NCBI GenBank assembly: GCA_027972325.1
Contig: JAPMOS010000002.1
Coordinates: forward strand, 1,305,981-1,369,980
Source of the DNA: Paratrimastix pyriformis
Lineage: Eukaryota; Preaxostyla; Paratrimastigidae
Reading direction: 5' to 3'
DNA: 64,000 nucleotides
Every line of letters begins with the position of its first letter. Position 1 is the first letter of the stretch. The notes beneath the pieces were generated by a model, which worked only from the letters and a program-made list of their open reading frames with translations, did not search any database and was not told the origin of the DNA. The position numbers and the translations under genes are program-made. Positions 40,593 to 50,645 of this stretch are shown piece by piece.

Positions 40593-43500
40593 GATGGCAA
40601 CAGAAGCAACGAACTCTGATGTGACAATCGAGACTAAAGATGGTCTCCTCTTCGAACTGTGCGTCGGAGATGGGGATGGCACTTCCGATGTCAACTGGGA
40701 ATTGGTCTGTCTTTCTGCTTCTGCCCTGTCCGCAAACATGACCACCAATAGGTTGGTGAGGTGACCGTCAGTTTGTCTGATTCCCACCTTGTGCTGTATT
40801 TTGGGAGGGAAGGCTCCGATCGGCGGCTGCATGCTTCTCGCATCTCTCTTGATTGCCTGTACCGGTTCTCCGAGGACGGGAACGAGGTTTCCTGGTTCGA
40901 CCAAGACCTCTCGGTTTTTCTCTCCGTCCACTTCGACCTCCCCGACCGGGCCGCCCAGTTCCGCCAGGCCCTGACGGCCCAATTGCAGCGGCTCACCACG
41001 GCCCGGGCCTCGCGCCTGGTCGCGCCGACGGCCCCGCGCATCGTCCAGGCCAACGATCTGCTGACGGTGACCTGGGACCCCGTCCCGGGGCCTCCCTGTA
41101 CATATCTTCTGGAGGCCTGCGTGACCCGGGTCCGCGAGGAGGTCGTGCGGCCCCCTGTCGGCGGGGCCGGGGGTGCCGCCGAAGGGGCCCAACGGAGGCG
41201 GCGCTCCATCCGAGAACGCGGGATCTTGGCAACATCGACCACCCTGGCGCAACCGGAAAGCTTCGTGCGGTTGCGGGCGGGGCCTGAGGTCTCCTTCGAG
41301 GCGCCCCTGGGGACCGTCCTGGACATTGTCTCGACGGCCCCCGCGGCCCCGGTCTTCCCGCTGCTGCTGCATTTCCGGGTGGGCGTGGCCACGGCTGGCC
41401 AGCCCATCTTCTCCTCGCCGGCCAGCCTGCAGGTCCTCGCACCCCCCAAGCGGCCCGCCCCTCCCCCACCCGAGGCGCCCCGCGGCGGCTCCGCTGAGCA
41501 GGCCGCCGCCCCCGGCGGGAGCACCGGCCCGGAAGGCTCCCCTCTCCAGCCAGCCAGCCTCGCAGCCATAGGATCCGGGCCATCTGCTGAGCCCCCCGAG
41601 GGGGCGCTCCTATGCATCGCCGACGATGGGACCCTCTCGCTGAACGGGGCCCTGACGGCCTGGTCTGCCCCGCCCACCCGGGTCCCCCACATCGGCTCCA
41701 CCAGTGATCCCCACCACATCCACATCGAGCCTCGGGTCGTGCCCGTCTTTCCTATGTGCGCTCCCTCACCCCGGCCCCCCTCGGCTGGGCACGCGGGGCA
41801 GGCTGGAGGGGCAGGCCCAGATCTACCCGGCCGCGGTGGTGACCTTCATGGGGCCGCCCCGGGCCGGCAAGAGCGCCCTCCTTCGGGCCATGTGGGCCCC
41901 GGGGGCCGCGCCCGGCGCCCCGCCGGAGGAGCAGGAGGGCCGCCCCGGCAGAGGCCCGGCCCCGGAGGCTCCCCCTGCCACCCGGGACGTGGTCTTCCGG
42001 GCCGCCACCGTGCGCCCGCTCCCGCCGCACAACGGTCCGCCCCTGCTGGTGGAAGGGCCCGCCCACGTTCGGTGGGCGACATCTCCCGCGTGGGGGCCGC
42101 GTGTGGGCATCTCGATCGCCACCTGGGCTGAGGGCGAGGGTGCCCGGTGCGGCGGGGGGTCTGGCGGTCGATGGGATGGGCGGATCGCCGAGGGCGGAGG
42201 AGCATCGGCCGTCGCCACCCGCTGACCCTGGCGGGCGGGCGGGCGGCTTCTGGTTGGGGGCGCAGCAGCGGATCGGTTTGCCCTCGCGGCCTCCGATTCG
42301 CCTCAGCTGCGGCGGTCCGAGGCGCCCCCGACCTCGGCCTCGGTGGGGGCCGACGAGCCGCCGCTGCACTACTTCTGCCTGGACACCGAGGGCCAGCCGC
42401 CCCTGCGGGAGGATGAGGGCTTCCGGTGCCGATCGCCCTCCCAGGCCAGGGTCCGCCGACATGACCGTCCCGCCCGCCCATCCGCATCGATCTCGCCCGC
42501 CCTCATCGTCGTCACCGCCCCCGCCCCCGCCCGCCCGCCCGATGGCGGCCCTCCGACCGATCCATCCGCCCTCGGGGATCTCCTCCGGCCCTCCGCCCTC
42601 CGCCCTCGGGGATCTCGGCTCGGGTGCTGGCACGCTGACGGGACGGTTGCGACCTGCCCGAGTAGCGCAAGCACGGGCTGCAGTGGTCGCTGGCCCAGTT
42701 CGCGTACTTCTGCACGGATCTGGTGGTCTTCGTGGCCCAGGGCTCCCCCGAGCAGTGGTCCGCCTCCGCCTCCGCCCCCACCGCCCCCCTCGCCGCGGCC
42801 ATCCATCACCCGGATATCCATCATCTTGCTGGCCCGTCTTGGCACATATTGATCTTGGCACATCTTGATCTTGGCACATCTTGATCTTGGCACATATTGA
42901 TCTTGGCACATATTGATCTTGGCACATATTGATCTTGGCACATCTTGATCTTGGCACATATTGATCTTGGCCATTGGCCGGGTCCCAGTGCGGCCGCCCT
43001 GCTTGCGAGCGCCCTCAGTCAGGGCGACTTCCTGCAGGGGGAGCCGCCCGCCCTGCTGGTCGTTTGCTGCCCCCCCGCGGCCCCACAGCAGCAACAGCAG
43101 CAGCAACAGCAACAACAAGACCGAGAAACTGTCTGTCGCCGGGGGGCGGTCTCAAGCGATGGCCGGCTCATAATGGCGGTGGTGGTGGCGGGGCAGGCGG
43201 ACGAGGTCACGGCCCGCTTCCTGGAGGGGCTTGGGCTGGCTCGGGGCCGGGTGGAGCTGCTCTACCGCGAGGTGACCTGCGTCGCCCTGCACACGCGCCC
43301 CCAGGTCCGCCCGTCCTGGCCCCCCGCCCTCGGTCGGCCCCGCCCCTCCTGGCGTGGCCAGTTCTTCACCGGCGCCCGTGGTGGTGGGTGGTGGTGGGTG
43401 GTGGTGGGCTTGACGTGGATTCCGGTGGTGGTGGTGGTGGTGGTGGTGGTGGTGGTGGTGGTGGTGGTGGTGGTGGTGGTGGTGGTGGTGGTGGTGGTGG

Positions 43501-49500: not shown

Positions 49501-50645
49501 TCGCCCCGCCCTCGCCCTCGCCATCCTCGGACTGGCATCCCTTTTCTCACGCCTCCCTCGGCTGCTGTGGGTCGGTGCTGCTGTGGGTCGGTGCTGCTGT
49601 GGGTCGGTGCTGCTGTGGGTCGGTGCTGCTGTGGGTCGGTGCTGCTGTGGGTCGGTGCTGCTGTGGGTCGGTGCTGCTGTGGGTCGGTGCTGCTCCGGGT
49701 TCAGGATCCTCCACCGGGACCTGAAGAGCCCCAACGTGCTCCTGGACAGCCACGGCACGGCCAAGGTCCCCGCGCCTCCTCGTCCTCTCGCATTCCCGGC
49801 CTGCCTCTGGGTGGCTGGGCTCCTCACACGCACCGGGGCGGTCCCGTGGCGCAGGTTGCCGACTTCGGGCTGTCGGCGCTGGCCAACATCGTCGGCACGG
49901 ACGCGGCCGAGGCGCCGTCCCCCCCTGCCGACGCCCCGCTCGAGCCCGGACAGCCCATCCCCAAGTGCAACGTGGGCACCAGTCCGCTTCAGCTCCCCCC
50001 ACCCCACCCCATCCCACGCACGTGCCTCCGAGGGGCTCTGCTGACCACCCCATCCCACGCACGTGCCTCCGAGGGGCTCTGCTGACCACCACGCCCCTCA
50101 CACCCACAGCCTACTGGACGGCACCCGAGGTGCTCAGAAGCGGGGGCGCCGTCTTCAGCAAAGGGGCCGACGTTTTTTCGTTCGGGGTGCTCCTGTGGGA
50201 GCTCTGCGCCCGCAAGGTCGGCCCCCTCCCGGCCATGCCCATCCCGCAGCAGGGCCATGCCCCCGAGGGCCATCGCCACGCGCCGCACAGGGGCTGACGA
50301 TGGGGTCCCTCTTGTCTTGTCTCGTCTCGTCTGTTCTGTCTGGTGTGCGGTCAGGTGCCCTACTCGCACATTCAGCCGCCCCTGGCTGACCAAGTGCTGG
50401 CCACTCGGATCGCCACCTCGCGGGGCGCCCTCCGGCCCGCCGTCGACCGGGCCCGCTGGCCAGGGGCGCTGCTGCGGCTGATGGAGCAGTGCTGGGCCGA
50501 GGACGTCGCCGCCCGGTGCAGCTTCGACCAGATCGTGGCCTTCTTCGTCGAGTACAGCCGCCTCGTGGCCAAGCAGGAGGCCGACGAGGGCCGGCGCCTC
50601 TGCTTCACCTCCGAGGGCCCCGTCCTCGAGCGCCTCCTGAGGTGA
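40593..50645 (+). CDS. Composite FN3 / GB1-type GTPase / RING / TRAF zinc finger / TKL protein kinase
   Basis: The ATG at 40593 starts [20 protein letters not shown]. Exon 2 (from ~40757) carries a PH-like segment ([20 protein letters not shown]) and a fibronectin-III-like domain ([20 protein letters not shown]...YLLEACV). A GB1/RHD3-type GTPase follows: P-loop [11 protein letters not shown] at ~41850, DTEG at ~42385, [18 protein letters not shown], then a helical region to ~45300. A RING has CLLCFQDC, then [14 protein letters not shown] and CPLCERP (45870-46200). TRAF-type fingers follow: [35 protein letters not shown]. After a Gln/Ala/Pro linker comes [18 protein letters not shown], leading into [10 protein letters not shown] and the kinase: [57 protein letters not shown]. 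The frame stays in phase at RE|NF, PP|PRPEN and DEW|EIAS. No internal start or gap was seen. The GTPase G4 motif was not found. Confidence 0.78.
42840..42972. repeat. 15-bp minisatellite in GTPase-domain intron
   Basis: Nine copies of about TTGATCTTGGCACAT with C/A variation at the end. It lies between the exon ending GSPEQW and the exon containing [13 protein letters not shown]. Confidence 0.9.
43380..43515. repeat. GGT trinucleotide array in an intron
   Basis: About 30 copies of GGT follow the GTCCGC donor at 43305 in the composite kinase gene. Confidence 0.9.
45310..45720. repeat. Compound microsatellite block in one intron
   Basis: Successive arrays of CACACACCACCCCTC, CCAATCATCAT and CAT occupy the intron between the last GTPase-associated exon (ending PPDTIRE) and the RING-containing exon (starting NFRALVGEL). 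Confidence 0.9.
46468..46785. repeat. 15-bp minisatellite CCCTCCCCTGCAGCC
   Basis: About 21 copies in the intron that splits the first TRAF-type zinc finger (PCARCGAMV | ELDDHLENC). Every unit ends in CTGCAG, so the array carries many potential 3' splice sites. Confidence 0.92.
47036..47205. repeat. Imperfect ~40/50-bp tandem repeat
   Basis: Five copies containing CACGTATGCCGAATCTCCTC and GGGCCACGCTTCAC, in the intron before the second TRAF-type finger exon. Confidence 0.85.
48308..48475. repeat. CCCCGA hexamer array before the kinase domain
   Basis: CCCGAC/CCCGGA hexamers fill the intron from the GTCCGT donor at 48265 to the AG before GAGATCGCC. The junction restores Trp-Glu-Ile, the usual TKL kinase lead-in. 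Confidence 0.9.

Follow-up and report, generated by a model that had tools for sequence, protein, structure and literature searches.

A probable single gene of Paratrimastix pyriformis joining a P-loop segment, a RING, TRAF-type zinc fingers and a Raf-like kinase

A gene on the forward strand of a Paratrimastix pyriformis contig probably encodes, in a single chain of about 1546 residues, a P-loop segment resembling a GTPase, a RING, two TRAF-type zinc fingers and a tyrosine kinase-like (TKL) kinase of the Raf/CTR1 type. It was found in a window of 64,000 nucleotides (C112:1305981-1369980; all other positions given without a contig are those of this window) from a genome assembly of 56,060,509 bases in 495 contigs, and its 27 exons extend from 40594 to 50645. 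The genome of this organism is described as 56,627,582 bp in 633 scaffolds with 60.94% GC (PMC10703272); the GC fraction of the window is 0.655, ranging from 0.54 to 0.77 per 2 kb.

The exons were threaded by hand on the plus strand by reading its three frames, with reading frame, GT-AG ends and phase as criteria. GT-AG introns with matching phases make up 25 of the 26, a count that is not blind since the boundaries were set with the local donor motif known, the donors of exons 2, 3 and 4 having been picked through phase and the motif GTC(C/T)G. The introns end in CAG (24 of 26) or TAG (2 of 26). In exons 2-27 the GC fraction is 0.74-1.0 at third codon positions (GC3) and 0.24-0.71 at second positions (GC2), and GC3 is 0.51 in exon 1. 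Downstream from the ATG at 40594, the model contains the P-loop GPPRAGKS (residue 358), DTEG (457), the RING residues (CLLC 848, CGHMLC 864, CGRC 869 and CPLC 893), the TRAF-type fingers (929-1010) and the kinase motifs WEI (1233), VAVKK (1265), HRDLKSPN (1355), VADFGLS (1373) and TAPE (1418). An earlier note, made from the letters of this DNA, had listed these motifs in this order on one strand, and both the reading of the DNA and the threaded model bear it out.

The earlier note had also proposed that one gene joins the RING and the TRAF-type fingers to the TKL kinase behind the P-loop segment. This is supported by the intron phases, by the motif SDEW/EI (a slash marks a splice junction) and by an exon 19 that has no start codon of its own upstream. 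The TRAF-type fingers and the kinase very probably share one reading frame, because exon 19 is not preceded by an in-frame ATG and because SDEW/EI is split by a splice. The frame of exon 19 meets a stop at 47774, holds no ATG from there to the exon; within the exon it has a single ATG, at 48227. Apart from that one, the plus strand between 47250 and 48300 has ATGs only at 47253 and 47880, both in another frame than exon 19. Exon 19 ends in SDE-W and exon 20 starts with EIASGEL, and the resulting SDEWEI aligns over SDDWEI of B-Raf (6u2h), which indicates that the residues before the exon 19/20 splice belong to the lead-in of the kinase. In addition, no ATG in frame with the RING exon 14 lies between a stop at 45162 and that exon.

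Two other arrangements have to be weighed at this junction. A gene encoding the GTPase-like segment, the RING and the TRAF-type fingers could stop at 48308-48310 if intron 19 were left unspliced, and the kinase could start at the ATG at 48520; exon 19 extended into intron 19 does reach this stop, and the ATG is in the frame of the kinase. This arrangement is improbable, as SDEW, which closes exon 19, aligns with the residues directly before the kinase in B-Raf, intron 19 has a GTCCG donor, a CAG acceptor and phases that agree, and the intergenic region of 209 bp would consist of about 160 bp of a 6-bp repeat. Alternatively, the kinase gene could begin within exon 19 at the in-frame ATG 48227, which would retain SDEW/EI, the TRAF gene ending elsewhere. 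We regard this as the least probable of the arrangements, for the 40 codons before that ATG (48107-48226) have a GC3 of 0.95 and a GC2 of 0.55 and hence read as coding, and the frame of the TRAF-finger exon 18 is free of stops until 50083, inside the kinase. The Ala-Gln repeat ahead of these codons, with a GC3 of 0.65, is uninformative.

Several observations weigh against the single-gene model. In-frame ATGs are present upstream of exon 16 (46184 and 45161), of exon 18 (47047) and in the frame of the kinase (48520), so that the sequence alone allows separate starts. The proposal that coding phase is kept across the introns holds for the two junctions named in support of it, PP/PRPEN and DEW/EIAS, and for all introns of the model except intron 10, in which the donor GAGG/GTCC is in phase 1 and the acceptor in phase 0. 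Furthermore, the positions of the PP/PRPEN junction and of the exon 4 acceptor, both within low-complexity or repeated sequence, are ambiguous. In searches with the bounds given below, neither the protein database nor the genome itself yielded a homolog with this domain order, and the only comparable pair of fingers and kinase among the genome matches listed, on contig C113, probably represents two genes as its sequence reads. A run of 33 Cs at 44273-44305 stands just inside intron 10, beside the sole phase conflict of the model, and may be the site of a sequencing error.

The RING and the TRAF-type zinc fingers are a probable ubiquitin-ligase module, as proposed earlier. In a trimmed piece covering both, the zf-TRAF family (PF02176) is matched in two stretches with an E-value of 5.9e-12 and 46.5 bits against a cut-off of 27, and the RING presents all eight zinc ligands in C3HC4 order (CLLC, then C-G-H-xx-C-xx-C, then CPLC). 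While the two significant fingers and the complete set of RING ligands stand, the RING itself falls under the Pfam cut-offs: six RING models match the trimmed piece with E-values of 0.0013-0.012 (15.8-19.1 bits), all below their cut-offs, and the best RING match in a scan of the full-length protein has an E-value of 0.14. In the open frame 45165-46397, which spans exon 14, the unspliced intron 14 and exon 15, zf-C3HC4 (PF00097) reaches 8.8e-4 and 19.5 bits against a cut-off of 21.

In the spliced protein, the kinase matches the Pfam families PK_Tyr_Ser-Thr (1.6e-36) and Pkinase (6.6e-34), its best matches among PDB chains are B-Raf and CTR1, and the glycine loop, Lys, alphaC Glu, HRD, DFG and APE motifs of TKL kinases are present. 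It is not the complete kinase that had been announced, as 27 residues, comprising beta4-beta5, the hinge and alphaD, are missing from the sequence as assembled, at the repeat-filled intron 21. The interval between the alphaC Glu and HRD measures 46 residues, compared with 75 in the pieces of a C113 kinase from the same genome and 73 in a chain of B-Raf (counted by hand). Exons 21 and 22 meet at phase 0 across 104 bp, 76 of which consist of the unit CGCCACA repeated 10.9 times. In the C113 kinase the break comes after HPNVVAFY, equivalent to HPNIVLFM in the fused gene, and the hinge, LALIIEYVPGGSLAEYL, forms a stretch of its own preceded by a CAG, the 3′ boundary of this stretch not being fixed.

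The gap reflects either an exon deleted between repeats or a collapse of the assembly. A true loss of the hinge exon, leaving a dead or decaying kinase domain, is a serious possibility that we hold to be somewhat short of probable. In favour of such a loss, a search of both window strands for a hinge pattern (a hydrophobic residue, then T, M or F, then E or Q, then Y, F or L) gave just two matches, one by chance in exon 1 and one at 23142, and the missing residues fall between phase-0 boundaries. However, some genuine hinges would escape this pattern, among them IIEYV in the C113 kinase, the remaining catalytic motifs are intact, and the gap falls on an array of 7-bp repeats, a place where assemblies can collapse. 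Many of the longer introns contain tandem arrays of units of 3-16 bp, several of them almost perfect (examples in Table 1). Such arrays are an assembly hazard and might explain why the kinase exon is missing.

The segment ahead of the RING had been taken for a GB1-type GTPase, an assignment that did not hold. Its P-loop follows the pattern GxxRxGKS with an Arg at the finger position K-3, a spacing found in R195/K198 of RNF112 and in the consensus YRTGKS of a GBP profile, and DTEG, the G3 motif, lies behind a hydrophobic strand. The profile was built from 21 of the 65 relatives of a GBP-type protein encoded on contig C473. Aligned to it with hhalign, the segment scored an E-value of 9.3e-4 (probability 22%), which became 4.7e-5 (probability 68%) after low-complexity sequence was cut, with the region from the P-loop to DTEG covered; the portion after DTEG alone gave 0.33, and HMMER with the same profile gave 0.012. 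The real score of 43.1 was reached by none of 150 full shuffles (best 23.9) and by 5 of 150 shuffles that kept the P-loop, from which it follows that the value of 4.7e-5 is carried mostly by the P-loop.

Moreover, the segment matches no Pfam or NCBIfam family at E ≤ 10, and the RD of the G4 motif is absent where it is aligned, with low confidence, to FLWLVRDF of GBP. Among PDB chains nothing was found at E ≤ 10, and the trimmed segment matched two DAHP synthase chains at 0.21 and no P-loop relative. The GBP-type genes of the same genome, on C467, C473 and C113 (at 231 kb), share with the segment a P-loop with the Arg finger and DTEG; unlike it, they score over the Pfam GBP cut-off exon by exon, giving 9 matches at E ≤ 10 among which the fused gene does not figure. 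The P-loop thus appears real as a motif, and its Arg at K-3 and the DTEG fit GB1, but membership of the segment in GB1 is not significant; the earlier note had itself named the lack of a significant GBP match here as one of the outcomes that would refute its proposal.

The P-loop could also have arisen by chance in a GC-rich region rich in Pro and Ala and bind no nucleotide. The missing families, P-loop relatives and RD, together with the weight of the P-loop in the profile score, point in this direction, whereas the P-loop with its Arg at K-3 and the DTEG stand in GB1 order, the full shuffles remain far from the real score, and two stretches are colinear with the GBP profile, at low confidence and with a lowered alignment threshold. 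We consider a chance P-loop possible but doubtful.

An FN3 domain, also part of the initial proposal, was not recovered at a significant level in the N-terminal part: the trimmed stretch has no Pfam match at E ≤ 10, and the best FN3 match among PDB chains, that of DCC (2ed9), is not significant (E = 0.085). It is preceded by designed WD40-type chains (7bie and kin), which match residues 7-115 approximately with E-values of 0.01-0.031, not significant either. An AlphaFold model of the exon 2 piece 40752-41459 has a predicted local distance difference test score of 38 and is unusable.

Relatives were sought in a protein database and in the genome itself. In the database, no protein was found at E ≤ 0.001 with the 1546-residue model (words taken from residues 1-1000), and none at E ≤ 10 with a query of 996 residues trimmed of low-complexity sequence (words from residues 1-632). 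Both searches covered 8000 scored candidates, their upper limit, sharing 5-residue words and having 0.55-1.75 times the length of the query (about 850-2705 and 548-1743 residues, respectively), and these bounds mean that the absence of relatives is no proof. No public protein of this locus was among the matches. In the genome, an N-terminal query of 690 residues freed of low-complexity sequence gave 16 matches at E ≤ 1, all within the gene, and hence no paralog. The kinase part gave 40 matches at E ≤ 0.001, of which 7 are the fused gene itself. The zf-TRAF family is large in this genome (116 matches at E ≤ 1), so the fingers had local donors. The RING profile PF13639 gave 76 matches.

The 116 zf-TRAF matches were compared by eye with the kinase matches listed, and among these, apart from the fused gene, only C113 (447000-464900, minus strand) had fingers preceding a same-strand kinase within 10 kb. 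In this region, RING-like and TRAF-type fingers (the latter at 456.4 kb) are followed 7 kb on by a kinase at 449.5 kb. The pair was considered as a second fusion and rejected, since a likely start (MMQSKPMAF...) lies between the fingers and the kinase. On C101 the order is reversed: a kinase stands at 221 kb, and the finger match, at 227 kb, is weak (E = 0.93).

TRAF6-type proteins contain a RING plus TRAF-type zinc fingers. The fused gene resembles them in having the RING first and the fingers after it, and differs in that no MATH/TRAF-C domain is among the 10 Pfam families found in the spliced protein at E ≤ 5, and in carrying a kinase and a GTPase-like segment. With the Raf/CTR1-type TKL kinases it shares, besides the best structural matches, the SDxWEI lead-in; unlike them, it is devoid of beta4-beta5, hinge and alphaD as assembled and has other N-terminal domains. 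KEG (Keep on Going) of Arabidopsis also unites a RING and a kinase in a single chain, with ankyrin and HERC2-like repeats in addition (PMC5385374). No ankyrin or RCC1/HERC family is among the 10 Pfam families of the fused protein, and the passages on KEG consulted in that source name neither TRAF fingers nor a P-loop. RNF112 combines in one chain a RING and a GTPase of the dynamin superfamily, the latter established by structure, and the spacing of its P-loop Arg195 and Lys198 equals that of RAGK in the fused gene (PMC12012479). In contrast, its RING is N-terminal to the GTPase and that of the fused gene C-terminal, the sections of the same source on RNF112 mention no kinase or TRAF fingers, and the segment of the fused gene is not significantly GB1. 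Among the top-ranked listings of the open-licence literature, no chain with a RING, TRAF-type fingers, a Raf-like kinase and a P-loop segment was found.

If one gene does encode all these parts, self-association of the GTPase-like segment, dependent on nucleotide, or clustering through the zinc fingers could gather the RING and kinase domains of several chains, which might then ubiquitylate and phosphorylate themselves and shared targets in one complex. Such a protein would do in cis what two separate proteins, a ligase with RING and TRAF fingers and a TKL kinase, do in trans, as TRAF6 and IRAK in animals. For the kinase half to function, the hinge exon absent from the assembly has to be present in the actual genome or transcript. 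KEG suggests that mutual influence between a RING and a kinase sharing a chain is possible (PMC5385374). The GTPase and RING activities of RNF112 were reported to be unrelated (PMC12012479), which speaks against assuming that they are coupled in the fused protein. More far-reaching, and unlikely, is the proposal of a lineage-specific chain that unites a GTPase switch of a divergent GB1-like type, a RING/TRAF-finger ubiquitin ligase and a Raf-like kinase that is active; one molecule would then do steps that in animals are split between GBP, TRAF6 and IRAK-type proteins. Fusions of a RING with a kinase (KEG) and of a RING with a GTPase (RNF112) are known, but separately. The fused gene would offer a natural test of whether a single gene product can serve as both ligase and kinase in a signalling complex of the innate type, in a lineage remote from both animals and plants.

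Table 1. Exons, selected introns and repeat arrays of the fused gene (positions in the window), and U1 small nuclear RNA matches in the genome
Feature	Position	Strand	Content
Exon 1	40594-40704	+	Start codon, N-terminal segment of unknown fold
Exon 2	40752-41662	+	N-terminal segment of unknown fold, FN3-like stretch (weak match), Pro-rich linker
Exon 3	41802-42034	+	P-loop GPPRAGKS, Arg at K-3
Exon 4	42269-42450	+	DTEG (G3-like)
Exons 5-13	42666-45300	+	Remainder of GTPase-like segment, C/H-rich stretch; GC3 0.74-1.0
Exons 5-9	42666-42757, 42989-43130, 43197-43304, 43539-43622, 43804-43939	+
Exons 10-13	44157-44269, 44459-44569, 44948-45019, 45184-45300	+
Intron 10	44270-44458	+	Phases conflict
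Exon 14	45726-45891	+	RING first half (CLLC)
Exon 15	46087-46262	+	RING second half (CGHMLCGRC...CPLC)
Exon 16	46412-46462	+	Start of TRAF-type finger (CARCGAM)
Exon 17	46908-46986	+	TRAF-type finger (...CPLKYLG)
Exon 18	47252-47663	+	Second TRAF-type finger, Pro-rich linker; zf-TRAF profile
Exon 19	47863-48264	+	Ala/Gln repeat linker, then SLRSVPESL...SRWSDEW into kinase
Exon 20	48558-48757	+	Kinase glycine loop, VAVKK
Exon 21	48975-49051	+	alphaC Glu to HPNIVLFM
Intron 21	49052-49155 (104 bp)	+	Expected place of hinge-coding exon; repeat 49062-49137
Exon 22	49156-49188	+	11 residues, start of alphaE
Exons 23-24	49367-49413, 49705-49765	+	HRDLKSPN
Exons 25-27	49855-49981, 50110-50216, 50355-50645	+	DFG, TAPE, C-lobe, stop 50643-50645
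Example repeat arrays in introns	42837-42971, 46469-46784, 48310-48469, 49062-49137, 49561-49694
U1 matches	Loci L053-L061 on C212, C231, C349, C441, C482, C495, C388, C24

Next to the fused gene, a divergent open reading frame, counted from stop to stop, occupies 40016-40510 on the minus strand, its upstream end lying within about 85 bp of the ATG of the fused gene; it matches no Pfam family at E ≤ 0.01.

The donor sites of the fused gene are mostly GTCCG or GTCTG. In the 26 donors as set, which again do not form a blind count, position +3 is C in 25 and position +5 is G in 22; 16 read GTCCG (12 of them GTCCGC) and 3 read GTCTG, so that one or the other is found in 19 of the 26 (40705-50354). 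Of the 25 GTCCG on the plus strand of the gene, 16 are at intron starts; the minus strand has 17. A search of the genome for the U1 small nuclear RNA (snRNA) gave 8 matches with E-values of 3.7e-13 to 2.0e-10 and 50.8-60.2 bits, all under the gathering score of 69.5; at the loose threshold of E ≤ 10, 9 of the 14 control genomes from prokaryotes gave matches as well, none of which exceeded the cut-off. All 8 matches have the 5′ start ATACAGACCTTGC, and thus read ATACAGACCTTG where the canonical U1 starts with ATACTTACCTG. A U1 beginning with AUACAGACCU, as in 8 out of 8, predicts the donor GTCTGT, in the context AG/GTCTGT. The donors of the fused gene agree with the U1 of the genome at +3 and +5, and the 12 GTCCGC donors leave +4 and +6 unpaired with it.

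Donor classes were counted on both strands of 50 sequences totalling 242,202 bases, some overlapping or near-identical, which comprised the window and other loci, with 18 loci inside the gene left out. AG/GTCTG was observed 74 times against 31 expected and AG/GTCCG 59 times against 42.6, while AG/GTAAG, AG/GTATG and AG/GTGAG stayed at 0.71-0.87 of expectation. Higher ratios on small counts were obtained for AG/GTACT (18 against 4.9), AG/GTAGA (18 against 6.7) and AG/GTAGC (22 against 8.5); AGGTACT is carried by the U6 loci themselves. In U6, ACAGAGA is kept in the 4 strong copies of 8 matches. Taken from the sequences, this looks like a compensatory shift of U1 and of the 5′ splice sites. In the oxymonad Streblomastix, the excerpt consulted gives A, U and G at positions +3 to +5 (PMC1501061), and the excerpts consulted of the one paper found to mention both Trimastix and U1 snRNA do not describe a changed U1 start. 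The change in U1 and in the donors may matter more widely than the fused gene, because gene finders expecting GTAAGT or GTATGT would misread this genome.

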